Shown: piece after piece, positions 1-23,300 of the stretch
Numbering within the stretch: the first letter of the stretch is position 1
Layout of the letters: each line of letters opens with the position of its first letter
Source: a virus
Length of the DNA: 25,590 nt
IMG/VR virus record: IMGVR_UViG_3300020445_000064
Span: 1-25,590 of that record
Reading direction: 5' to 3' (one strand)
Program-made: the position numbers and the translations under genes
Notes under the pieces: generated by a model
The model's database searches: none
Told to the model about the DNA's origin: nothing
The model's input: the letters and a program-made list of their open reading frames with translations, nothing else

Positions 1-473
1 TTAACAACATATCCTGCGTCACGTAATACATTTACTGCGGTCATTGCACTACCACCAGTTGTTGTGACATCCTCAAGAACAGTAACAATTGATCCTTTGG
101 GTGGTTTATTACCCTCAATGACCTCTTTTGTTCCGTATCCTTTGGGATTCTTGCGGATAATAAGAGCATCAATATGTCTGTTGCCCTTATAATATGCTTT
201 TTGTGCAATACCACAGACCAATGGATCAGCTCCTAGAGTTAATCCACCCACTGCAACCGCACCCTTCTCAACAAACTTGATCATAAGATGAGCAAGCAAT
301 GCATTACCCTCACATGACAGTGTGACAGGTTTACAATTGACATAATGTTCTGACTCTTTGCCAGATGACAGTGTAAACTGTCCGTGTCTGTATGCTTTCT
401 CTTTCAGCAATTGAAGCAGAGTTTCTCTATGCTTCATATCGTCATGAGGAATAGCATTCTGGTATGGTTTCAT
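1..473 (-). CDS. pyrE: Orotate phosphoribosyltransferase, 3' end cut by window edge
   Basis: OPRTases join orotate to PRPP to make OMP, the step before UMP in pyrimidine synthesis; cytosolic. I translated this by hand from ATG at 473-471 and read 157 open codons to the window edge. Seen: the substrate segment FTLSSGKES..YVNCK (residues 33-48), GGLTLGADP, the catalytic-loop segment IRKNPKGYGTK (106-116) and the PRPP-binding motif VLEDVTTTGGSA (about 132-143). Together these are diagnostic for the OPRT type of phosphoribosyltransferase. Family members run about 180-215 aa, so roughly 30-50 residues lie outside the window. The ATG sits in an ATGA overlap with the stop of the preceding gene, so translation is probably coupled; I see no strong Shine-Dalgarno. 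pyrE is a host-like metabolic gene that would feed pyrimidine supply during phage DNA synthesis (inference). Confidence 0.92.
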   Translation of the reverse strand, partial: MKPYQNAIPHDDMKHRETLLQLLKEKAYRHGQFTLSSGKESEHYVNCKPVTLSCEGNALLAHLMIKFVEKGAVAVGGLTLGADPLVCGIAQKAYYKGNRHIDALIIRKNPKGYGTKEVIEGNKPPKGSIVTVLEDVTTTGGSAMTAVNVLRDAGYVV

Positions 474-1072: not shown

Positions 1073-1359
1073 TAGCAAGCACCAAGAAAATCTCCTTTAC
1101 GTTTAAATCCCCACTTATCATAAATGACTGGGAATGTGGTTGCTTTATATCTTAGCTCCTCATACTCTTCTTGTGGTAGATCCCACCACAATATCTTCCA
1201 TACATTACGTGCATTTCTACACTTACGAGACTTGAATAAGTTCATTTTCCACTTGCGTTCAGTCTCTTCAAATGTAGGTGGATACTGTTTGTATAATGCC
1301 TGTGCATTCACAGTATTATACTTGGCATTGTCATAATGCTGGTAATAAAACTTAGTCAT
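1072..1359 (-). CDS. Hypothetical protein, 95 aa, basic and aromatic-rich
   Basis: Function unknown. The protein is rich in Tyr, Trp, Lys and Arg: an N-terminal Tyr-rich stretch (FYYQHYDNAKYNT), a basic centre (ERKWKMNLFKSRKCRNARN) and the segment VWKILWWDLPQEEYEELRYK at about residues 53-72. There is no signal peptide or membrane segment, and no cysteine clusters. The basic centre would be compatible with nucleic-acid binding, but no known motif is visible. Its ATG at 1359 overlaps the preceding stop in an ATGA junction, with AAGGTG just upstream as a possible ribosome site. Its TAA overlaps the next ATG by one base. These couplings, and lack of any other open frame here, support it as a real gene. 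Confidence 0.75.
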   Translation of the reverse strand: MTKFYYQHYDNAKYNTVNAQALYKQYPPTFEETERKWKMNLFKSRKCRNARNVWKILWWDLPQEEYEELRYKATTFPVIYDKWGFKRKGDFLGAC

Positions 1360-1583
1360 GCACCTTGTAATGATAGTGAGTTGTGATAGATTTGCTTAGT
1401 GTTTAAGCATGTCTTGTGAATGTTAAAGAGTAACTCAAAGTTTACTCCTTCCCAGTCCTCCCATTCTGACACATAATCAGAGTTATCAAAATCTCCTGTG
1501 CCATCTGTGAACTGTGGGCATGATCTAAATTCTAGGTCATCATCAACCCAGAATAGTCTGCCAAATGCTTCTGAACTGTACAT
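1356..1583 (-). CDS. Small acidic hypothetical protein, 75 aa
   Basis: Function unknown; it resembles small acidic proteins I associate with cyanophage genomes, but I cannot name a family. The N-terminal two-thirds is strongly acidic and aromatic (LFWVDDDLEFRSCPQF, then DGTGDFDNSDYVSEWEDWEGV), followed by a His/Asn-containing C-terminus (FNIHKTCLNTKQIYHNS). No membrane segment is seen. It is the first gene of the promoter-distal unit: ATG at 1583 lies directly below the structured leader, with ACAGGTTAAATCA before it (a weak AGGT ribosome site). Its TGA overlaps the next ATG by 4 bases. Confidence 0.8.
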   Translation of the reverse strand: MYSSEAFGRLFWVDDDLEFRSCPQFTDGTGDFDNSDYVSEWEDWEGVNFELLFNIHKTCLNTKQIYHNSLSLQGA

Positions 1584-1587
1584 TGAT

Positions 1588-1701
1588 TTAACCTGTAAAT
1601 GGAGTGTTGAGAGAGTGGGGCATCATGACGGGTTTCACCCGAATGCCCAAATTTACCCTACGGGAATCGCTTACACCTGAACCCCCACCACTTTCAACCA
1701 T
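1588..1701 (-). CDS. Possible 37-codon ORF inside the structured leader
   Basis: In the same frame as the ORF at 1738-1794, after two stop codons, an ATG at 1701 opens 37 codons (MVESGGGSGVSDSRRVNLG..., ending PFTG) that stop four bases before the ATG of the 75-aa gene. Such a position could couple the two. No good ribosome site is seen before it, the composition (Gly/Ser/Arg) is that of GC-rich RNA-coding sequence, and it covers the compound hairpin. More likely a by-product of structured RNA than a gene. Confidence 0.15.
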   Translation of the reverse strand: MVESGGGSGVSDSRRVNLGIRVKPVMMPHSLNTPFTG

Positions 1702-1737
1702 CAGTCTTATGTGTGCTGTGATAGGTTTCTACCAACC

Positions 1738-1794
1738 TCATGTCCATGCTTCTAAGTCATGGCGGTCAGTAGGTTTGGGGCGTAGGAACCACAT
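1738..1794 (-). CDS. Possible 18-codon leader ORF
   Basis: Reads MWFLRPKPTDRHDLEAWT followed by TGA. A GAGGG ribosome-site-like sequence (1797-1801) lies a few bases before the ATG, which is why I list it. Against it: the predicted start of transcription from the late-type promoter at 1804-1811 falls near 1797, leaving almost no leader for a ribosome, and the ORF overlaps two hairpins. It could be a leader peptide, a decayed coding frame or chance. Confidence 0.2.
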   Translation of the reverse strand: MWFLRPKPTDRHDLEAWT

Positions 1795-1803
1795 ATCCCT
1801 CAA

Positions 1804-1811
1804 CATTTATA
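1804..1811 (-). promoter_or_regulatory. T4-late-type promoter TATAAATG
   Basis: Minus strand reads ATTATATAAATGTTGAGG, one mismatch from the T4 late promoter TATAAATA (cyanophage form NATAAATA). It lies immediately below the terminator at 1820-1844 and above the leader and the 75-aa gene, which is where a new transcription unit must begin. The AT-rich TATTATA part could also serve as a sigma-70 -10 element, but I see no TTGACA at the right distance. Confidence 0.45.
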
Positions 1812-1819
1812 TAATAGCA

Positions 1820-1844
1820 TTAAAATGCCCCCTGTATAGGGGGC
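1820..1844 (-). terminator. Intrinsic terminator after the tail operon
   Basis: Minus strand has a perfect 6-bp all-GC stem GCCCCC / GGGGGC (1844-1839 with 1832-1827) with the 6-nt loop TATACA, followed by ATTTTA. It starts 23 bases below the stop of the 2OG oxygenase gene. The T-run is only four, but the stem is strong and the position, between two units read in the same direction, is right. No T-run follows on the plus strand. Confidence 0.8.
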
Positions 1845-1867
1845 CTGTGACAGTTTGTAATGTGTCT

Positions 1868-2491
1868 CTATTTTAACGTGAGTTGGTTACCATATCCTAT
1901 ATTAACACCATCACCACCACCAACTGTACCTTTAAAGAATGTGTTAAATGATAATGACCAACGATCCAGCTCCACAGGTGGCACACCATGTGCTACCTTA
2001 GATGGGAACATAACCAACTTACCATCTTCATGGTCTACACTCTCATACATCATATCACCGTATGGGAATTCAAATCCACGAAATACTTCATTAATATCAG
2101 TACCAAAATATAATGGTTGATTACCCTCAGTGCCAATAAAGAACACACCAGATATAATACTATTAGAATGTTGATGCATTGTATGTTCTACTCCTGGCAT
2201 TAAATGATTAACCCACGAGTCTGTAATATAAAACTCAACATCACCAACAATCTTATACACATCATGTGCAAAGTTATTAATATGTCCTTGAATCCATTGA
2301 CTAAGAGATGATAGCTCCTCACGCTGAAGAATCTGAAGATCTCTACTATGTCGTTTCCCACCACCTATAATTTCACTATTTCTACCTATCATGGTGGATC
2401 TGATGTACCCTCTCTCATCTGAGGATAAAGAATAATGCTCTGTTGTCTCATATAAAATAGGACCGAGAAACTTCCTACTAGTGTATGTCAT
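1868..2491 (-). CDS. 2OG-Fe(II) oxygenase family protein
   Basis: A 207-aa protein of the double-stranded beta-helix dioxygenase type that uses 2-oxoglutarate, O2 and Fe(II); the substrate is unknown. Seen: the core motif HTMHQHSNSIISGVFFI (residues 103-119, with the HxH pair H106/H108), then GKLVMFPSKVAHGVPP (157-172) with the distal His H168, then DRWSLSFN with Arg177 in the place of the 2-oxoglutarate-binding Arg. This order matches the small phage and bacterial oxygenase family TIGR02466. W93 and N95 before the motif also fit. The length is usual. ATG at 2491 overlaps the preceding stop by 4 bases. It is the last gene of the tail unit, directly before the terminator. It might hydroxylate a structural protein or act on host metabolism; neither is shown. 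Confidence 0.85.
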   Translation of the reverse strand: MTYTSRKFLGPILYETTEHYSLSSDERGYIRSTMIGRNSEIIGGGKRHSRDLQILQREELSSLSQWIQGHINNFAHDVYKIVGDVEFYITDSWVNHLMPGVEHTMHQHSNSIISGVFFIGTEGNQPLYFGTDINEVFRGFEFPYGDMMYESVDHEDGKLVMFPSKVAHGVPPVELDRWSLSFNTFFKGTVGGGDGVNIGYGNQLTLK

Positions 2492-4036: not shown

Positions 4037-7000
4037 CTAGAATGCCTTTATTAGATATTTAGCCCTGTGATACCTAGTGATCAAAGGAATAGGTGTTGTT
4101 GGTGTTGCAGTTGCAGTAACTGATATTGGTGTTGATGTTGATAGAGAGAATGTACCATCAGAGAATCTAATGTTAGATTCAGATGCTGTACATGTCTTCC
4201 TAAGAACATTCAATCCACTATCAGGACCACATGTTCCTTCATTACCAGGTAATGTAGCGTTGGAAGCTGGGGTGAACTCCTGTGTAGTAACTGGTCCATA
4301 AACTAGACCAATTTCTGCCAATCCAAAGTTATCATTTGTGTCAGTATTATCACCACCACTTGGTCTAGTCTGACTTAGATATAGATATATGCCACTAGTT
4401 CTAGCATTATTATTCTCATCAAGTTCAACTTCATACTCCTCATAACCAGCAGAAGTAACACCATTACTTACAATCTCTTGTAAGAATGTTGGAGCTGCTT
4501 GTTCTATTGAAGTCTTATAGTATAGGTACAATGGTTCTTCAGGTGAATCACCACCATTACTACCATTACCTTTGATGACATTAAATACCATCTTCTCAAC
4601 ACTCTTTAAGTTAAGTGGTCCAACATTCATATATCTATTACCATCACCTGTAAAATTAATATAATTAGTCGCTTGAGCAGAAGCAGCAGGGAATGTTCCA
4701 GAACTAGGAGCTACAACAACCATGTCATCACTACCACTATGCCATATAGCAGCAGCTGCATTTGCTACTCCAATAGTATCATGTGTCCAATCTGGAGTAC
4801 CAGGATATCCAGGAACTTCATAGAACCTACCAGCAGGTGTAGTATATCCTGTAATTGTACCAGAACCAGGAATTATACCTTCAGCTATAATTTGTACATA
4901 TCCATTTGAAGCACCCTGAGAATTACCACCAGCTCCACCATTACCAGCAGAACCCATTGTAATAGTAAATCCAGTTTCTATCTCTTCACCCTGTATTGTA
5001 AATGATACCCAAGCACCTGATCCACCTCCACCACCAGAAGGATTTGTAGTATCACCCTCATAATGTACTGTGAAGTTTGCATATCCAGCACCTGATGATC
5101 CATTACTGGATACATTAGCACTCTTTAAATATGTACCATTATATGCAGAACGTCCAGCTTGTCCACCAGCTCCTGATCCTGTTGCACTGTGACCAGCACC
5201 AGCAACTCCTCCTTGTCCACCATTACCAGCACCAGCGGGGCCAAATCCACCGCCTCCACCACCACCGCCTCCAGCGGTACATGATGATTCACCTCCACCC
5301 ATTTGTGAAGTATTAGTTCCTGGTCCAATAGATGGTGCATTATATAATCCACTTGGATTGTTAATACCAGCTCCACCAGTCCAACATAAGTCAACGATAC
5401 CAGCGTCATTATCACCGCCGCCACCGCCGCCTCCTCCACCGCCGCCACCAGCACCAGCTATCCAGCCTGTTGCAGCAGCAATTGCAGTTGCTCCACCACC
5501 AGCACCACCTGATGATCCATTACCCCAATATCCCATTCCACCATATCCACCTTGAGCAGCACCAGATCCACCAGTATTATTTCTTGGTTCTATACTATTA
5601 TCAGCATAATCATTACGTCCTTGACCACCTTGACCACCAACAATAATAGTTTGGAAATTAGTAACTAAAGTACTACCATCGCCAGTAACAGCAGTTAATC
5701 TTTGTCCGTTACCACCAGGTCCACCCAATCCATTAGAATCATTCTGACATCCACTGGTTTTATTTGCATTACCATTACCACCAGCACCACCAGATATATC
5801 AATATCAATCTTAGAAACTGTTGTTAGAGCAGGAAGATTTGAATCTTGCAATACATTATAACTGTAGTTACCAGCACCACTAAAATTCTTTGTGAAGCTA
5901 CCAGAATTAGGTGTTGTAGAAAATCCTCCATCTCCACCATTACCTGATTCTGCTTGTGGTCCTCCACCAATATATCCACCAGGTGGTATGTATCCTTCAG
6001 TAGTACCTGAACCACCACTAGTTCCATCTTGTCCAGTTAATTGCTGATCTAAACTGAACCCATTTGCCATTGTTAATTGATTAGCATTTGCTCCTAAACT
6101 AAATGTGCCACCTGATCCACCGTTACCTCCAGATGTTCCAGATGCACCACCTCCACCACCACCAACTGTGATAGTATGTTGAACATTATTTAATGTGAAT
6201 GAACATGTAATGTCACCACCATTTGAACCATTACCGTCACTTCCACCACCACCTCCACCAGGAGCTACCAAGGTGACTGTATATTTCTTTGTGTTAGGAT
6301 TACTATCATTTAAAGTCTTGAATATTGTTCCACTACTATCCAAAGTATTATTATATCTTTCCACATAAGATCCTGGTGGATATGTTATTGATGGCTTACC
6401 ACCAATAGAAGTAGCAGAATCAACAACATATACTCTGGGTTCAGGTGTTGTTGTTACATCCTCAAAATATCCAGCTGCTTCTCTAATCGTACCTCCAGCA
6501 TTACCAGTAGCTGCTGTTGGTTGATTATCTGATGGTGGTTCAACTCTAAGTGATTGTGCAGCATGTCCTGTCTGAACTACTTGGAAACTTCCATCATATC
6601 CTGTTCCAGCACTTGCAATGGTAACCCAATCACCAATAGAAATACCATGTTCTACTGGTGTATTGACAATAATATATGTACCATCCCAAGTAATACTTGA
6701 GTATGATACAGTTGGTGGTTCAGTAATCCTATAAAGATAACAACCAGGATTATTTGGATCTTCTATCCTATCACCAATACCAGCACTATTACCATAAGTT
6801 GATGTAACAGCATTTGTTGGTCTGATGTTTGTTAATCCATGAGCATGACCTAATGGTATCTCATCAGAAGTACTTGGGAAGAAGTTAAGAACACCACCTT
6901 TAGCATCTCTATATGCAGTAGTAAATGAATCAACACCACCAAGTGATGCTTCAAACATACTATTTGTCTGACTATTCAATAGATAATGCTGGTGTTCTAC

Positions 7001-9990: not shown

Positions 9991-11399
9991 TAGAATGCCC
10001 TCATGATGTATATCATTGTTTGTGAAGGAGTGTTTGGATTGACATTAACACTCAAAGCAGTATCAATATCTACTGGAACAGTAGTACCAGTAGAAACATT
10101 ATTAACAAGAAGTGTAGTGGGTATACCCAAACTACCTTTAGTCATTGATATCTCCATTGCATCATGCTTGTGTGATCTCAATCCAGCATCAGCAAATCTT
10201 TCTGCTTCATGATTAAGACATGTAGTATAAGTATTTGTTACGTTTGGGTTTGGTACTTGCTTACCTTCAGCATTAACTGGGTAATCAGTCACATACCCAT
10301 CAGCATAGTTTGCATCACCAGCCTGTGGCATACCAGCTCCTCTATGTGCTACTGGAATATCTGTTGATGCGTAAAAATTTCTTGCTCCTTGATATCTACC
10401 AGCAGGTGGAAATGCACCAGTATGTGCAGGTGCAGGTGGCAATCCTGGAATAGCACCTCCCAGATCTTGATACTCATTTTCAATCTGAGCTGTGATGGGA
10501 ATAGTTCTACCACCAGTAGGATTAACTGGAACTGCTCCAGCAGTTGCAGCTACATTCTTCTGAGCACCACCATCAACCATTGATATTCCACCATCATTTG
10601 CATCATACCATGTTACATCATATAAACCTGGTCTAAATGTGTGTGCCTGACTAGTATTTCCTTTCCATCCAATTGCAGTAACTGAACTAACATTAGAAGC
10701 ATCTGCTAATCCTTTACCTGGTTGCCACTCTAATAGTTTAGTACCAGTTGGGTTAGCAAATAAGAACTGATCAAAATCACTATCACTCATTGGTCTATGA
10801 GTATGTGCTGGTGTATGATCAATACCTAATTTTCTAGGTATAACATAAGCACTAGTAAAATATATTGGTGGATCCATTATAATCCCAGTTATTCTACCAG
10901 CAAGATTATTAGATGGCTCTACATTAAATGATAAATCAATATCACTTTTAACTAGAGTCTTTGCTTGTGTTCCTGTTGAACCATTTCTACTAACATATGG
11001 ACCAACAACTGTCACATCAGAATCACCATTAGATGAATCAGTATCAATCATTGACATTTCAAGATCAACCAACGCAACCTGATTAAGATTAGGAAGATCA
11101 AATGTATCAACATGACCAGCTGTTAAGTCCTTATTATATGGAAAAGAATTAACTATACCAAAATTAATTCCCAACTGCTGACCGATAGATACATCAGGAA
11201 AAGGACCATATTCATTGCCGATGATACTAGCTAAGATAGGATAGTCAGCAGCATTTAAGCCTTTCATTCCAGCATTGCATATTAACCATCCTCTCGGTAT
11301 ATCATCTGCTTCTTCTCCTACAGCAGAGCCTCCTGTCCAAGGCATAATTGTCCCTACTGGGGCAATTTTTTGAGTTTTAATTCTGTTATAATGAGCCAT
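9990..11399 (-). CDS. Collar-type tail fibre protein, 469 aa
   Basis: The first of three related collar-type proteins. The N-terminal segment IAPVGTIMPWTGG, then IPRGWLICNAG....AADYPILASIIGNEYG, then FDLPNLN, is a typical phage tail-collar domain (about residues 13-110). HxH pairs lie near 198 (PAHTHRPM) and 410 (SHKHDAM), matching the pair arrangement of the next gene. In T4 gp12 and gp37 such His pairs coordinate metal along the trimer axis. The C-terminus QTMIYIMRAF parallels YLIKAF of the 1524-aa fibre. I chose ATG at 11399 (MAHYNRIK), not the ATG at 11420, because it makes a TAATG overlap with the giant gene, has a perfect AAGGAGGT four bases upstream, and matches the MA..YN/R starts of its relatives. 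Confidence 0.85.
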   Translation of the reverse strand: MAHYNRIKTQKIAPVGTIMPWTGGSAVGEEADDIPRGWLICNAGMKGLNAADYPILASIIGNEYGPFPDVSIGQQLGINFGIVNSFPYNKDLTAGHVDTFDLPNLNQVALVDLEMSMIDTDSSNGDSDVTVVGPYVSRNGSTGTQAKTLVKSDIDLSFNVEPSNNLAGRITGIIMDPPIYFTSAYVIPRKLGIDHTPAHTHRPMSDSDFDQFLFANPTGTKLLEWQPGKGLADASNVSSVTAIGWKGNTSQAHTFRPGLYDVTWYDANDGGISMVDGGAQKNVAATAGAVPVNPTGGRTIPITAQIENEYQDLGGAIPGLPPAPAHTGAFPPAGRYQGARNFYASTDIPVAHRGAGMPQAGDANYADGYVTDYPVNAEGKQVPNPNVTNTYTTCLNHEAERFADAGLRSHKHDAMEISMTKGSLGIPTTLLVNNVSTGTTVPVDIDTALSVNVNPNTPSQTMIYIMRAF

Positions 11400-14300
11400 T
11401 AAACCTCCTTGAGCCACCAACCTGTGAATGATCCACCAACAGGAGAACCATTTGAATCAACACCACCAAGATATACTAACGTAAATGCAGCATTTGGTGT
11501 TTGTACAACCAACTCACCTGAAGTATATGCAGTAGGAAGACCTCCTAATGTTGTACCAGTAGAGTCACCTTGTACTCTTGTTCCAGTTCCCTGTGCTCTA
11601 ACAACAAGGGAAGTATTATATGTTAGATTACCACCAACTTCAATAATATTGACAGTATCACCAGTTGTTGGATTATCAGGTAGATATACTACAAACTCAT
11701 CACCATCTGCAACATTGACGAAGTAAGAAATGTTCGCCTCTAAGTATGTATTAGAAGCTGCAGCTCCTGTAGCAAGATATCTTGCATGTCTACCACCAGT
11801 CTTAGTATAGAAGTTATCAATTCCAAACGAATCAATTGACTGGTCATGATTAATTACAAACTTATTAGTACCATTATAACCTAAGTTATGAATAGAGAAC
11901 TTAGCATTCTTAGCTGGATTTACTAATGCATTACCAGTAAGAGATAGTGTAGTACCAGCAGTTACATTACCATCAGTATCAACAAGCAACGATGGATCAC
12001 ATGCACCACTCTGTTGTTCAGGACATGTTATTGGATAAACAACAAGTGAACCATGACCAATTACACTAGCTTCAAATGTTATTGTACCAGCATGATCAGC
12101 ATGACCATCATCATTTCTAAGACTTAATATCTTAGTCTGTCTAACAGAATCATAGATATCAACATCACCACCAATCATCTCAAAACTATTATTAAGTTTG
12201 AGTGTACCCTTAGAATGACTAACCACACCATCATGGGTGTACTCATTCATTATTGGATTGTGAACTGCACCGAAGAGGTTTCCATTAACACTAAACCAAG
12301 TATCAGGTAATGTACCACCAACACCTACTTCTCTGGTATCAACAAACCTAACCCACTGATCATGATCAAGTTTGGTCTGAACAATATATCCATGACTGAG
12401 GATTAGAGAGATATAAGGAGTTGGTACTCCAGAAAGATCTCTACTTCTCAACGCAATGTCTTCAACATGTGAAGTATCAACATGCTTCAGAATTCTAACA
12501 ACAGTAGTATCATTTGCTATGTAAGTTGTTAGAGCTTTGCCAGTAGTTCCTTCCTGTGCAGGATTACATCTCAATGTCTTAGTAGTCTCATCAATACTCT
12601 CAATGAGCATGACTTCAACATCTGTTCCTTGTAATAACTTATTATCAATATCAACAGTTTTACCAACTAAGACTAGATCACCAACAGCAAACTTACCATC
12701 ATTTTCTCCAAGTGTAGCAACTGGTAAGAAGAATTTACCAGGATGATTTGTATCAGTAACTGCATTTGCAGATAGAACTGATGTAGGTCCACCAGTGTTA
12801 AATGTTAGTGGATCTATCCAATAAGAGTAAACTCTAATATGTTCTTCAAGACCATCAAATGTTCCAACAACAGTAGCAGCAGTCTGAGCTCCTAATGCCT
12901 TTGTAATGTCTATTCTTCTAGATTGATTACCAATCTCAAGAACAGCACTACATGTGTCAAGGTGAAGTGCATTCTGACCAGCACCATTATTAATTTCAAA
13001 TGTCTCATTAGTAACAGCTCTGAAGTTAATATTATTAACTGTTTGACCAGTACTAATTCCTCTGCTAATCTTAATTTTATCAGAATGAATCTCAACAATC
13101 TTTGTATTTTCATTAACAATGATTGGATTACCTTCAGAATATCCATTCAACTTAACAATATCACCAATTTGAAGTGTAGCAATATCAGTTGCACTTATAC
13201 CACTAATAATATAGTTGATAGGTTCTGCTGCACTTGTTGGTACAATATCACCTTGGAAAGTTCTTTGTAATGAAACACCAGGTGGTAATACTTCACATCC
13301 ACCACTAATAGCGACAGAGTTATTAATATCAAGAGTACCACCAATGTATGTGTTACCAGTTACAGAGTTAACAACAAATACATCTACATCTGGGTTACCA
13401 CAACTAGAAACTTTAAGTTTCTGTTCTACTTCACCAAGTAATGTACCTACCTTAATTGCCTCACCAACTGATGGGGAAGCTGGATCACGATCAATAATAA
13501 CATAATCATTAGTTGTTAATCCACCACCAAACTCTGCAAGATCAACAGTATCTTCAGGTCCAGTATTGTCAAGTGCAGCTTCTGTCCATGTAGAATCAAA
13601 CTGTACATTAACCTTGTAGATAGGAGTAAGATCTTGGTGATCTGTTATTATTCCAGTAAATGTACCAAATGGTTGACGCTTAACCTTCAGATAATATGGA
13701 GAATTAACTACACTTGTCAATTCAACAATCTGAACAATCTCAGGATGTCTAGTAACACCAACTATACCACTGTCAATAAGCAGATAATCATTCTCTGCAA
13801 AGTATCCAGTTGTATCAGCATCTCTAATTGGTAGATAGTACTCATCACCAGTTAGAGCTGGTAGATTTGGAGTTACATTAGTTCTAGCATTCTGATACTC
13901 TGCACCACCCCAAGGATCTGTACCTTCAGTGTTAACCTCATTGTAATCATCATCAGTATTAGCTTTAACAAGAACATTTAATATATCAATGTTTTTATTA
14001 AACTGAGATTGTCCAAGAATGCCATCATCATGAGCAGTAATGGAAGATCCAAGTTGTCCTCTGACACCAGTAAATGTAAAGGATTCTAATCCACCACACA
14101 AATGTACATCAGCGTTAAACTTAGCAGATGCAACAACTTCAAGTTGGTTGTTAATCTTAGTTCTACCACCTTGACCAGCAACATTAATATCAGATGCATT
14201 TAATGCAAAGTTAATAGTAGAAGGACCACCAGAGTTAGAGAAGAACTCAACAGTACCAGCAGGGCTAGCAAGGTTTACAGTATCAGTAATACCTCTACCA

Positions 14301-17300
14301 AATCCTAACCACTGATCACCATCAACCTTGAGAGCTTTAGATGATATACGTGTATAAGATGAAGACTCATTGCTCGCATCAGCACCACCAATAGTAATCT
14401 GAGAAACATCAGTACCAGAACCAGATGGTGTAGCTCCAAGAGTAATTTCACTTGATGCACTTAAATTACCTATCTTAATATCTTGTTCTGCTGTCTGTGC
14501 ATTACCAATCTCAATGTTCTGAGCATATCCAGCAGCAAGTAATCCTTTACTACCACCAGTTGTATTACTCTGAGTACCAACAAAAGTATTATTCATCAGG
14601 AAGTTAAATGTTCCCGTTGTAATACCCGTTGTTACATTGACAGTACCATTAAGATCCGCATCAGGCCAAGAACCAATTAGAACATCCTGTTCTAATGCAA
14701 CATTATCAGTGAATCTACCAGTACCAACAACAGTTAATGTTGAATCAAGTACTTCATTAGTAACATCAATTGTTGCTGGAGTAGCAACTCCTGGTCCCAC
14801 TGTATTGATACCAACCTTACCACCACCACTGGTAGCAACTCTTAATGTTGCTGTATTATCAGGTGTTGAACTATCACCACCAACCATGAATGCATGGTCT
14901 TGATCTACCTTAGTTCTATTACCAAACTGTGCTTCATCAAGGAAGTTAGTGATTGTTCTACCACTAATCCACGCAGTACCAACAACATCTAAGTTTGATC
15001 TAGGAGCTGTATCTAAATCATTCCACGCATCTAGATAAGCAGCATGATTAGCTCTAGCGACTGTGTTGATACCAACCTTATAGTCACCAATGTTTTGTAC
15101 ATGTGTTCTAATAGACTCAGCACCAAGAACACCAAATTCCATCCAAGTAGAATTAGAGTATTCAAATTTAATGTTAGGATTAGATGCAACCTCATCAGAC
15201 CATAGTCTTGGGTTATCATTACCAATAGTCTGTCTATTAACAAGTATGTTAAACTTACATGTAATAGCAGATCCACTGAATCCATTAGGATCAACCAACC
15301 ATGTACCATTAAATGCAGTATCACTATAACCAGTGATCTTAATCTGAGATCCACTTGTTATACCAACTTGCTGGTTAGATAGGTTGTTACCCCATGTGAT
15401 AGTAATTTCCTTACTACCATTCATAGTAAAGTGTTGGATACTATTGTTAGGAACAGTTGCAAAGTAGTTTGCATATATCCAACCAAGAGAACCACTCTGT
15501 CCTACATCGTTACCCTTGAGTAACATGTCTCCAGATAGAGGAACTCCAGCATTACCATACTGAACCTGTTGAGATGAATCAATTGCAGTACCAAGTCCAG
15601 TGTTATAAAGAGGACTTTGGTTTGGTGCAATATTAGATCCAAGGTTACTAACAACATGGTTCTGAATCTTGTATCCTTGAGCAGCTCCAGATGAACCACG
15701 TGGGTTAAACTGGAATACAGATGCAGCTACCCTGTTTCTACCAAGTACAACATCACCAAATGTGTCTTGGTTAAGAGTTTGAGATCCTCTATCAAGTGAC
15801 TGATCATCCTTATCAGATGCATCGCTACTTACATAAGATCCAATGGTCAGAGAATTTTTTCTAACTCTACCAAGAACATTAATCTTAACAGGTGAATTGA
15901 AGAAGCTATCCTTATCCTGTGCATCACCACCATTAACAGTAATGTTTTGGTTAAATGTTACAGGAGTATCAAACGTGGTGACGAGATCTCCAATATCCTC
16001 TTCATCATCAGCAGAATCAACTAATGCTGCTCTTTCTAAGAATTCTTCTTCACCAGTGATAGCATTAATCTTACGGTTACCAATGTATAGGTCACCATTA
16101 GAGTTAAGACCAGTGTAGAATACTAAACCACCATTCTGCTTCTTAGATTGAGAGTAGAAATCTTGTGTGGCAGTAAGAACAACTTCCTGACGTACAGGCA
16201 TACCAGTTGAGTAGTTACCTGGACCAAAACCAAGGTATTCAAACGTATGGTTACCAGCACGTGCAATAGATGGTCTTCGTAACTCAACATACATTCTCTT
16301 CTGAGATGTAACTGGATGTGTACCAGCAGCTTGATTTCCTGTAATTGGAATCAAACGATCTTCAGAACCAGAAGAAGCATTACCTTTCTGTGCAACCAAG
16401 ATACTCTTATCATTAGCACCTGTGAAGGAAACATTTTCAAATGCTAGGGTAGCAACGAAATCTTCCATTGCCTCCTTAGTCATAGATCCCTTAAAATCAT
16501 TAACTCTTACAAGACCGTGAACATAGTTATCAGCAGCAGAATATGTTTGAGGTGGATCAACTAATGTTGCATCCAACTTCTGATACCAAAGAGGATCATT
16601 CTTATAGTTTAATGGATATAGTTTACTGATTGGCTGAGAGAACTTAAATTCTCTGAAGTTACCAAGGTTACCAGCTCCTGTTGGTAGTGGTGAGTTATTA
16701 CCACGTACAGCAGTTAGATAGTAAATACCATCTTGCTGACCAAAGATACGCTTCTGAATTTGCTTACTCTCAAAGACATAGAATGTATCATTTAAATCAC
16801 CAACGTCAGTTACAGAATCAACATAGAACTGAATGTTTGCATCGTCAGTAATAATATCACCAGGAGTAATGGTGTAAATGGCTGCACCATTCTGTCTATA
16901 ATAATATTCTGGATATCCCTTCTTAATAAGATCCTTAATAACAAGTGACTTACCATAGTCTGGATCTGCTGTTAGATCAGCAAATACTGTTCCCTGAGAG
17001 AATCTAATGTTATCAGTAGCAGAGAAATCAATAGGACCAACAGCACCCTTCAAGATCAAATGCCATGTGGAACTTGGATCGTTAGGATTATTTGGTAGAG
17101 CAGCATGGATATATGCATATCCTTCTGAATTACCATCCCATTCAATTCTATTAGCAGCAACAGACTGGCTCCTATCAGCAATGAATGAACCACCTTGAGG
17201 ATTTGTTATAGCAACTGTTATAAATGTCTCATTTAATAACGCAGTGTTAGTAACATCCTGATCAAATACTGTCAATTCTAGTAGTTCATCACCACTCTGT

Positions 17301-20300
17301 GTATCAGTAAAATATCTACCAGACTGAATAGACATTGAAACATAGTTAGTTGTCTCAATCTTCTTAACATACTGAATATTACCAACTAGATCCTTCTTAT
17401 ATGGATCATATGCTGCATCAGCATTCAAACTATTAACAGTAAAATCATTATCAGTATAACCAATCTTCTCATTGGCTTGTACTGGGTTGTAGAATGTTGC
17501 CTTAGTAACAGAACCAGATACTGGCTTCAGAACAATCTTCTGTGGTAATAGTTTTCTGGTCTCATCCTTACGTACCTTAATAGTGAAACCATTCAAAGGA
17601 TCACGAACAGACTGTAAGTACTGAGGAATAACATAACGTAAACGATAGATACGATCTTCTGCATCTCTATCATCCTTGATTCTTTCATACCAAGAATCAT
17701 TTGTCTTATCCTGACCAGATGCATCACTATAAGTAGCATCATGGAATCTAGATAAGATTTCCATTGAGTTTGCACCAGCACCCTGAGAATTATTTTCTAC
17801 CTGAAGATACCACTTACCATAAGCTGTTGGAGTAGTATTTGGATTTGGATATGATGGATCATATCTCATTGGTGACTCACGCTTGTCTGCAAATACAGAG
17901 AAGTCGTAAGTTCCAGGCTGGAATGTAATAGGATTAACATTTGCTATCGCATCATTCTTAGTAGCATGGATAGTAAATACCTTTTCATTCTGATATCTTG
18001 CAAAGAAGAATTTATTTCCTCTTATTTCACCAGTGGTTGTATCAGCAAAGGCTGGATTAGTTGCATATGAAGCTCCTAAGACAGGAAGACTTCCACCCTC
18101 ATTAGCTCTGAAGAATACTTCATGCTCAGTAGTATTAGAAGATACAATATCAAATATATGTGGAACGTCTGTTCTGATACCAGCAGTGACTGATCCATCA
18201 AGTACACAAGAGTATTGATGTAGATCATACTTATCATCAAGAACAAACTGATAGACATCAATTTCAATGTCTGGATGGATTGCCTCTACTTCAGCAGAGT
18301 GAATGTAGATACCAGCAGCAGCATTTTCCTTACTACTTGCTAACATCATGTAGAGCTGTGATGCTGCACCACCATTGAACTGTGTTGCAGTGCTATAATT
18401 CTCTGGTTTTGTATTTCTACCAGAAGCAATTACATAGTACTTGGTGTTAGTATCAAATCCATTAGGTAGTCTTACATTACGCTTATCAACATCAACATAC
18501 TCATTAGTTGTTGTATCATAACGAGGACGTGGTACAAGACGTACAGGAGTTCCAGTCTCTAAGTTATGAGGATTAGTTCCTGCGATCTTCCATAATGTAG
18601 CTCTAGAAGACAATGCTGATGTAGCAGTAGCTGGTTGAGTTCTAGGAACACTATTCAGACCAGTCTGAATAATAGTAACAATATTAGAGAAGTACTGACG
18701 TATAGTATCAGACTGAGTATTACATTGAGGATAACCAGTATCTTGTGTAATACTATCATCTGTTGTTGGTGTGTACTCAGTTGTGTATACACCAGATGGT
18801 AAGGTGAAGTATAGATAAGAGTTTGATGTACTGGAATTAGCATTCACAGAAGGACCAAATGCAACACCCAATGGTGATTCAACTCTCTCTACAAGATCTA
18901 GAGATCCAGTTGTTGTAATTGCATCAGTAAGTAACTTGAATAGAGTAGTTACAGATGAAGCAACATTCTGACATGAACCATTAGAAATAGTTCTTGTAAT
19001 ACTATCAAGGGAGCTAGGTGTAGAAACAGTACTCTTAACAATGTTAATAAGAGTATCAATAGATGTTCTTACATTCTCACACTTACCAACTGACCTAGTT
19101 CTTATAACACCACCAGTTGTTACAGCTCCAGCAGATGCACTAACAAATGTGTGTGGATAATTACCACCAGTAATTAGTGAATTTGCAGCAGCAGAAACAA
19201 ATGTATGAACATATTGATCTGATGCACCAGAAGCACCAACATCTACAGTAATTGTAGTTGAAGTTACAGATACTATATTAACTGCTGTTTGATATGCTGG
19301 ATCAGTTGCTCTAGGATAAGTATGGTTAGTAGCATTACCATCCTTAGTACATGTGAATGTAAATCCATCATCAGCTAATCTAACACTACTACCAGCCTTC
19401 AAACTATGAGCACCAATAGTCAGCATCATATAACCAGATGAAGGATTATATGTAGCATTTGTTGGTGTATAATTTACAGATGGAGATGCATCTCCTACAT
19501 TAACTGTAATAGAATTTGCTGTTACTGCTGATATAACAATTGACTTACCAGAAATAGGATCAGATGTACGTGGATAAGTGTGGTTAGTAGCATTACTATC
19601 CATTCCACATGTAAATGTCAGAGAATTATCTGCTATCTGAACATAGGTTCCAGCAGATATACTATGAGCACCAATTGTTAATGTTAGATCACCAGTAGCA
19701 GGGTCATAAGTAGCACCACTAACAGATCTTGTTATTCCAGTAAGACTCTCAGGTGTCTGTAGAGCATTAGTAACGATAGTAGATAATGTACTAACAGCAG
19801 ATCTTACATCCTCACACTTAGTAACAGACTCAGTACGAGTTACACCCTGTAGTGAACTTGGTGTAGAAATAGTATCAGTCAGAATCTGAACTAAAGAAGT
19901 AACTGTAGCTCTCTGATTAGGACACTTAGGATTATTAGTATCAGAAGTAATTGATGTGTCTTTTGCTTGAGTTAATGCTGTGTGACCACCAACAGTAACT
20001 GTCTCATTTGTCATAACCTGAATAATCAGATCACGTACATGATTGAAAGCAGATATAGTTTCATTCTCAGATCCAGCAGCATGAGCTCCAGCAACATACA
20101 TGTTGGCAGCATCCCACACACGATCATTACCACCGTATGCTAAGTTGTGTGCAACAACATCTACTACATCCTTAAGATCATCAAGACAATCAGTGGAACT
20201 ATATCCAGACTGCCATGTATAAGAAGGATACTGGGCTATCATCCTTCCCAGTGCAATTTCTGCCACGAAATTTTTGTTGGCATCAATTAAATTCTTAGCA

Positions 20301-23300
20301 TCACCGACCTTATTATCTTGAGGTGATTGAGTAGCAACTGTTAATGCATTATCATATGACTGAACTAATCCATGCTTACCAATAATGAGAACCTTCTCTT
20401 GTCTCATTACTTGAACCATTATATTAGTAGCATACTTAAATGCCATGACAACCTGATCTGTTTGTCCTGCACAAATAGCAAGAGAAACATATAGGTTTGC
20501 CATATCCCAAGTTCTATCATTACCACCGAAGGCAGTATTATATGAAACTTCCTCAACGAAATCTAATAGATCATCAAGACAATCTTGAGGGTCGCCAGTT
20601 GGAGGTAGATAGGTAGGATATTCTAGAAGCATTCTTGCATAAGCTTCCTGTGCAATCAAATCCTTATTAGCAATCATTAGATTGCGAGCATCACCAAATC
20701 TATCTGTTGGAGGATCAGCGATGTCAGTAGTAATTGTAGTATCAATTACCTGACTTATACCATGAGAACCAATGGATAAAATTCTTTGGTTACGAGCAAC
20801 TTGAGTAGCAAGTTCTTTTACATGCTCAAATACTATATTAGTTTCTGTCTCCTCACCAGCAACGTGAGCTCCAGTCTTGTATGAGTATGCAGCATCCCAT
20901 GTCTTATCGTTACCACCATATGCTACGTTATCAGCAACTGCTTCAAGTAGATCAACAACGTCATCAACACAATCTTGATTATGATATGCTCTGCTATTTC
21001 CTACAGAGAATACCTTATGAACAGAATCAGGTTCTGAGCTGACCCATGTATGATTATAATTACCACCAGTAATAACAGCACCAGAAGTTGCACTAACAAA
21101 TGTGTGTCCAAATCTATTACCTACTGTACCTACATCAACATTAATAGTAATAGATCCACTCTGCTTCTCAATACCATTACTAGTACCTCTTCTAAAGGTA
21201 TGAACAGATTGAGGAAGATGCTTAACACAATTATTTCCAGCAGAAACAAATGTATGTACTGACTGTGGCTTGTATTGAACAGCATCAGTATCAGCACTTA
21301 CAAATGTATGAGCATATTGGTTGTTAGTATCAGCGTCAAAACCTACATTAATAGTAAGTGTTCCATCTTGATGTTCTAACCCACCAGCAGAAGAACTAAC
21401 AAAATAATGAGCAGAAGTATCCTGAGATATACCTACATTAACTTGGAATGCATTCTGAGCAACATTAGAAATCTTCAACCAACGTCCACTTGGATAATCA
21501 TATCCAGCACGAGGATATGCTTTACCACTTGTAGCAATACCTACATTAAATGAAATAGTATCAGCAGTTACTGCTGTAATTGCTAATGCATTGTTATATG
21601 CAGGGTCAGTTGTACGTGGATATGTATGGACTGTAGCATGACCATCCTTATCACATGTGAAGCTAAGAGAATTAGGAGTAATAGTTACAGTATCACTAGT
21701 AGTTAAACTATGACCTGCTGCTGTAACAGTCATCACACCAGTTGCAGGATCATATGTAGCAGCAGTGACATCTAGACCACCATTAATTGCATTTGCTACT
21801 GTTCCACCAACATATGTGTGGGAGCCTGCTCCACCAAGAGCACAAGATAATGTTAATGCTCCATCAGCAATCTTAACGTAATCTCCATCAGAGAATCCAT
21901 GATTAGCAACTGAAAGCAATAATGCTCCACTTGTTGGAGTATATGATGCACCAGTTATACTATGAGTTGTTGCTCCAACTGATGTTACACTTATAGACTT
22001 ACCAGCCCAAGGATCAGTACCAGGACGAGGATAAGTATGCTGTGTTGCATTACTATCTTTATCACAAGTAAAGGTAAGAGAATTATTTTTAAGAACAACA
22101 TCAGAACCAACTGCCAATCCATGCTGTCCTACTGTTAGAGTTAAATCACCAGTTGCTTGATTATATGTTGCAGCTGTTGGTTGGAAATTTTTATCATCTC
22201 CAGCATTTCCAACATTAACAGTAATACTATCAGCAGTAGATGCTTTAATATCTAATGATCTTCCTGAAGCTCTATCTTTACCAGCCCGTGGGTATGATTG
22301 AGCAACTTGATTACCATCCATTGTACATGTAAATGACAATGCATCGTTATCAATAGTAATACCATCACCAACACTTAACTGGTGAGTACCAATAGTTAAT
22401 ACAAGATCTCCACTAGCAGGATCATATGTAGCAGTGGAAGGAGTATATTCTTGATTAGCTCCTGCTGCACCAACGTTGATTGTAAACTGATCAGTTGTTA
22501 CATTAGAAACTTCTAACCACTTACCAAAATATGGATCCGATTCACGTGGATAACTATGCTCTGTTGCATTACCATCAAAAGCACATGTGAATGTTAATGA
22601 ATTCTCAGAAATTCTTACTCTATCACCATTAACAAATCCATGACTTGGAGAAGTAACCTGCATAATACCAGTTGCAGGATCATATGCTGCTCCTGTTGGA
22701 GTCTTATAAGAAGATCCAACATCAGTAATAGTTAAAGCAGTATCATATGCAGGGTCAGTTGCACGTGGATAAGAATGTGTGGTAGCATTATTATCTTTAT
22801 CACAAGTAAATGTTAAAGAGTTATTAGCTAACTTGATACTAGTTCCCTTAACAAGATTGTGGTTATCAATACTTAATGATAGATCTCCAGTATTCTGGTT
22901 GTAAGTAGCATCAACAACATCATATGTTTTAATAGGACTCTTACCAACATTCAATGTGATAGTATTAACAGTTGTAGATCCAACTGGCAATAATGCATTT
23001 CCAGCTGGGTCACTAATACGAGGATATGAATGGTTAGAACCATTGCTATCCATACCACAAGTAAATGTTAATGCATTGAAGTCAAATCTAACAGCATCTG
23101 CTTCTCTCTGAATACCATTTCCAGCAGCAGTAGAGAATGTATGAGCATAATCACCACCAGTCTTAACACATGAAGAAGCAGCACTCACAAATGTATGAAC
23201 AGTTGTGTTTGTAGATGGTTGTGATGCTAAAACTTGTACTGTAATAGTAGTTGCAGTTGCAGCAGTAATTGGAATAGAAAGAGCTGCTGGATCTGTAGCT

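Follow-up and report, generated by a model that had tools for sequence, protein, structure and literature searches.

What does a hairpin-rich, GC-enriched gap between two transcription units do in the genome of a marine virus? The window (the whole stretch of 25,590 nucleotides that we analysed) carries all of its long genes on the minus strand. A 284-base gap separates a 2OG-Fe(II) oxygenase gene (1868-2491, minus strand) from the first gene downstream of the gap, which encodes a 75-aa protein of unknown function (phrog_13427; 1356-1583, minus strand). The downstream unit ends, at the window edge, with a pyrE-like phosphoribosyltransferase gene (phrog_32468; 3-467, minus strand). A preliminary description had placed in this gap a leader with several hairpins and no convincing gene, lying between a terminator and a new unit that ends in pyrE, and had read it as a regulatory switch.

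The layout was confirmed. GC content reaches 50% at 1601-1800, whereas most neighbouring 200-base segments have about 33-44%, and the upstream unit closes with an intrinsic terminator-like hairpin (GCCCCCTATACAGGGGGC followed by ATTTT; 1827-1844, minus strand), near-identical in two related loci (L001 and L003). Farther along the window, one open frame of 4728 aa (11399-25585, minus strand) takes up 55% of its length and adjoins tail-collar and fibre genes.

Results

Comparison with homologues gives strong evidence for a structured RNA on the minus strand, at about 1804-1606. The corrected limits of the element are 1804-1606, with the promoter at 1819-1811; the predicted first base is G1804 and the last base pair of stem P1 ends at C1606. 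The model R1 matches the window at 1601-1808 with 121.6 bits (E 2.7e-35). The RNA measures about 200 nt in the window and its core, without the side domain, about 115 nt.

In the predicted fold (all positions on the minus strand), a stem (P1/P2) opens into two arms. The 5′ strand of P1 (GTTGAGGGA, 1796-1804) pairs with 1606-1614, and 8 of its 9 pairs change on both sides among homologues. The 5′ strand of P2 (GTG, 1790-1792) pairs with 1615-1617 and is replaced by ACG/CGT in relatives; the 3′ strands of P2 and P1 together occupy 1606-1617. The first arm begins with P3 (CCTACG, 1781-1786, paired with 1657-1662), with both-side changes in 5 of 6 pairs. It continues with P4 (CCCC, 1777-1780, paired with 1683-1686), which closes a swappable side domain of 99 nt (1682-1780) that gives way to other modules in other phages. 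The helices within this domain are CCTACTGAC/GTTGGTAG, a hairpin CCATG-ACTTAGAAG-CATGG, and AACC/GGTT with CAG/CTG. A possible likeness of the ACTTAGAAG loop to the GTPase-centre hairpin of 23S rRNA was set aside; the stems there are in a different register. The 3′ side of the first arm holds an unpaired, near-invariant segment of 20 nt (GTTCAGGTGTAAGCGATTCC, 1663-1682) that tolerates few variants, and a conserved joining segment (GTAAATTT) follows at 1649-1656. The second arm is a hairpin (1618-1648) made of P5 (GGGCAT/ATGCCC) and P6 (CGGG-TGAAA-CCCG) with the constant apex GGTGAAACC; its stems belong to the aligned core structure.

Folding energy alone would be insufficient to accept these hairpins. 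The minimum-energy fold of the whole leader was no better than shuffles (z -0.92) and that of the 99-nt side domain somewhat better (z -2.31); a plus-strand fold was rejected, being no better than shuffles. We accepted the hairpins as real because homologues covary. In the core, aligned from 30 copies with short side domains, 19 of the 32 pairs change on both sides, and 96.7% of the cells are paired, against 85.2% in shuffles. The core covariation score was 0.372, whereas shuffled alignments gave 0.158 and slid ones at most 0.13, and none of 500 shuffles reached it. For the side domain of the window (nine sequences), 7 of 24 pairs have both-side changes with all cells paired (100%; 0/500 shuffles). 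These values come from pair counting rather than R-scape. Compensatory changes thus exceed both the shuffled and the slid controls, as expected of a structured RNA.

The clearest helix is P3, with six base pairs, which varies while the flanking sequence stays constant: CTACTG/CAGTAG, CCTATG/CATAGG, CCATAG/CTATGG, CCTACG/CGTAGG and CTCTAG/CTAGAG all occur. It is fully paired in 120 of 123 copies; its partner strand was taken as the best upstream GGTT site, a slight bias towards pairing that is insufficient to explain this count. With the stem end excluded, G-U pairs outnumber A-C mismatches by 51 to 6, and by 27 to 6 without the one column that contributes 24 of the 51. This excess indicates that the minus-strand RNA is the molecule under selection.

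The preliminary description had named a lack of covariation, together with change like that of decaying coding DNA, as grounds for giving up a structured RNA. When examined, both points went the other way. The homologues preserve no reading frame. All six frames were checked in 140 of them, each frame being closed in at least 125, and insert lengths cover all three classes modulo 3, which argues against decaying coding DNA. Its statement that the region holds no convincing gene stands. A mobile hairpin or dispersed repeat acting at the DNA level would fit the way modules nest in one another and recur outside the element. However, one copy per genome, a G-U bias for one strand and a constant promoter spacing are at odds with it, and we give hardly any credence to this reading, decaying coding DNA included.

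BLASTN located copies in intergenic DNA of the Prochlorococcus phages P-SSM2 and P-SSM5 and of AG-345 viruses (from single marine cells), among different genes. In a set of 50,697 phage records, the element occurred only in P-SSM2/P-SSM5 and four AG-345 viruses; the P-SSM2 copy lies at NC_006883.2:56,695-56,823. A 19-mer of the most conserved loop matches at least 119 marine viral stretches in IMG/VR, and a second pattern retrieves a slightly varied form of the RNA. Among 84,980 genomes of bacteria and archaea, none matched the combined pattern, so no host copies were seen there. From its likeness to P-SSM2, the phage of the window probably has the same kind of host.

When the alignment was turned into a covariance model, a search of 24 records gave exactly one copy in each of 21, from 43 kb up to the 252-kb genome of P-SSM2; the other three, all fragments, gave no match. 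The only record seen with two core copies is L042 (1276-1294 and 2185-2203, minus strand), where they lie 0.9 kb apart and differ in their P3 helices and side domains.

The genomic context is varied. Copies occur in at least 10 gene neighbourhoods, and the gene downstream differs from phage to phage, although nearly all copies are co-directional with the genes that follow, like a leader. We looked for a universal protein partner and rejected the idea, as no family adjoins more than a fraction of the copies. A tie to the downstream gene family was dropped too, since most of the 19 relatives of the 75-aa gene lack the element. The link to pyrE is specific to the genome of the window.

These results bear on the proposed switch, which would sense a metabolite or signal by forming GTGGGG/CCCCAC in place of the main fold. 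The sequence of the window does allow this alternative, and the pyrE-like gene belongs to the unit downstream. However, the six consecutive pairs are impossible in 41 of the 47 distinct homologous combinations, so the alternative is not conserved. We also found no conserved alternative that would hide a terminator or a start site, as in a riboswitch or attenuator, and no terminator follows P1 in the window. The downstream genes are functionally unrelated, and no Rfam riboswitch matched. A single copy with varied downstream genes does not resemble a riboswitch dedicated to a single pathway. Thus, the switch claim did not hold up, and we consider such a function very unlikely.

Directly before the RNA lies an extended -10 promoter element (TGCTATTAT, 1811-1819, minus strand), with 6 nt from the end of the hexamer to the first base of P1. 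In the commonest class of copies, the GTTGAG class, 53 of 57 have a hexamer (at least five positions matching TATAAT) exactly 6 nt before the first P1 base, and 44 of 57 also have the TG of the extended -10. Given this fixed spacing, transcription is predicted to begin with the first base of P1. We found no RNA-seq evidence for a transcript from P-SSM2 in the literature searched. Other copies are located within operons or behind other RNA modules.

Around 20 copies (L038, L113, L127, L132 and others) form a class without the -10 element, directly behind a stop codon. They share a conserved stretch, GGGGGGAC....TAAA(G/C)TGT......GTGTGAGG, which may be a promoter of another type or an RNA element. 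In addition, a box AA(C/G)TG(G/T)CAC recurs past the stop codon of the upstream gene and ahead of the terminator or promoter, at 1846-1855 (minus strand) in the window and at many related loci. AACTGKCACA occurs 15 times in P-SSM2, and a close variant lies upstream of 53 of the 140 copies.

At the 3′ end, the start codon of the 75-aa gene (1583) comes 22 nt past P1, with no terminator in between. Among homologues, a U-run terminator follows P1 in 29 of 137 copies, compared with 23 of 138 upstream, an uninformative contrast. With no terminator before the nearby start codon, the RNA of the window would have to be released from the mRNA or else work as part of it.

The RNA has both conserved and variable parts. 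Invariant or nearly so are GTTCAGGTGTAAGCGATTCC, GTAAATTT, the apex GGTGAAACC and the GGTT before P3. The invariance of the 20-nt segment is partly imposed, because most copies were collected with a pattern inside it; the second pattern, which left this segment free, revealed only a few changes there. Every stem varies, as does the P4-closed domain, which ranges from 14 to 231 nt and is made up from a restricted repertoire of modules, which also nest in one another. L001 and L003 keep the terminator of the window (with a different last base), its promoter and its P1 around a different interior, so the interior of the RNA is exchangeable as a whole unit.

Several companion elements were observed. 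Behind the same promoter and P1, L001 (about 4477-4740) and L003 (about 4493-4690) hold a "type 2 core", GGTT-CCTAAC...GTTAGG-GTAATTGACTGCCCC, whose motif adjoins the type 1 core in L039, L128, L152 and L175. On the 3′ side of P1, L086, L055, L109, L048 and others carry a second module with a structure of its own, which looks like an H-type pseudoknot and has 16 distinct variants overall (for example, around 4681-4760 in L003). Its helix A appears as CATGTC/GACATG, CTAGTC/GACTAG, CAACCC/GGGTTG and others. Helix B, which crosses it around a constant GGCGATA, appears as TGTAGTTTC/GAAACTACA, GATGGTTTC/GAAACCATC and GGTGGTTTC/GAAACCACC. A further module, CGAGGAGATGGATGTGCCTCG...GAACTAACATCC, stands directly before start codons in L106, L127, L037, L025 and P-SSM2 (56,044-56,089); its hairpin-loop GGATGT could pair with a downstream ACATCC, a possible pseudoknot. 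Finally, in a clade with P-SSM2 (56,933-57,061; PSSM2_071), L022, L033, L109 and L126, the unit consists solely of RNA modules, an ORF of 37-43 aa (MSPNFAEFLL...) and a terminator. The RNA may therefore be its main product.

Discussion

At the level of known families, the preliminary description had left open whether this was a known cyanophage RNA class or a new cis-regulatory RNA. Newness with respect to Rfam was borne out, and the class is previously undescribed. At gathering thresholds, no Rfam family matched P-SSM2, the window or any of 20 related loci, and wcaG, manA and PhotoRC-II were absent even with E values up to 5 and 3. At loose thresholds, the upstream terminator resembled Trp_leader (E 0.025, below the gathering score); this weak match and two chance matches were rejected. 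Literature searches, in which subscription journals were thinly covered, found no description of the RNA.

The known classes it had suggested found no support. The wcaG (RF01761) and manA (RF01745) RNAs are structured RNAs in 5′ regions of marine T4-like cyanophages, and PhotoRC-II (RF01717) is a leader RNA of marine cyanophages (PMC2864571). Our RNA is likewise a structured cyanophage RNA in a 5′ region. However, wcaG and manA precede genes of related function, whereas the RNA described here has varied downstream genes and matches neither model. PhotoRC-II is tied to psbA, a gene of the photosynthetic reaction centre; the RNA of the window has no match to its model and no psbA downstream. For these three families, we found neither the downstream functions (exopolysaccharide, mannose, psbA) nor a covariance score that reaches the gathering threshold.

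Nearest in spirit, by analogy, are GOLLD and ROOL, ornate RNAs of phages and prophages, over about 600-800 nt long, that are found near tRNA islands (PMC12286853). The likeness lies in a single large folded phage RNA with elaborate helices, no known protein partner and unknown function; GOLLD also combines one conserved part with one less conserved part. However, both are far larger than the RNA described here, and their class feature is an RNA-only homo-oligomer. We found no match to their Rfam models and no tRNA island nearby in the window, which contains no tRNA or tmRNA.

Our preferred reading, to which we assign a probability of about one half, is that the RNA of the window is one copy of a new structured-RNA class found in P-SSM2-like cyanophages and is a product in its own right, a scaffold or decoy that acts in trans through its invariant loops. 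A promoter of its own would drive the RNA, which would open a new transcription unit. P1 would hide and protect the 5′ end of the RNA. The fixed loops would hold a shared partner, which may be a protein, a host RNA or a second copy of the RNA, and phages would trade the side domains as cassettes. It is mainly the single copy number and the varied context that suggest action in trans, as a scaffold or decoy, in preference to a switch that serves the next gene.

The main rival is a cis-acting 5′ leader without a ligand switch, whose folded end protects the mRNA from 5′-end-dependent decay or whose binding of a common protein sets translation. It is a possible but doubtful reading, kept alive because, in the window, the RNA and the next gene have no terminator between them. 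The predicted transcript start at the first base of P1 would give a base-paired 5′ end, and the element and its companion modules extend to the next, co-directional gene. In contrast, one copy per genome with differing downstream genes would be odd for a general stabiliser or for gene-specific control, and the invariant loops call for a specific partner. The following genes have Shine-Dalgarno sequences of a strength like that of other genes (31/68 vs. 297/751). The same lack of difference led us to reject a ribosome entry element signalled by a missing Shine-Dalgarno.

Two further readings were weighed. Phage ribozymes are also found in unrelated gene contexts and have variable arms. A new class of self-cleaving ribozyme would fit the conserved unpaired core within variable helices and the contexts unrelated to gene function. 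However, no Rfam ribozyme matched, no cleavage site can be named, and the 20-nt segment with two joining segments is less compact than usual ribozyme cores; we find this very unlikely. Alternatively, the RNA could be the primer transcript of a replication origin (an R-loop origin as in T4, or RNA II-like), in keeping with its single copy, own promoter and variable position. Against this, GC skew does not switch at the P-SSM2 copy but tracks the coding strand there, which makes it a weak test, and we judge an origin primer to be highly improbable.

A bolder reading, less likely than not, is a combinatorial RNA architecture. Phages may share a library of small RNA domains (the type 1 core, the second core type, pseudoknot modules and nested hairpin modules) that fit into one another at fixed joints, so that each genome builds one folded RNA. 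An arms race, either with the host or between competing phages, may drive this.

Conclusions

Prochlorococcus phages are among the commonest marine viruses. The isolate P-SSM2 and many uncultured relatives share a folded RNA, present once per genome, with near-invariant loops and swappable domains, which points to an RNA-based infection function that protein annotation has missed. Both P-SSM2 and its host are cultivable, which makes the RNA directly testable. Moreover, domains that nest and swap while every stem stays paired offer a natural example of modular RNA construction.
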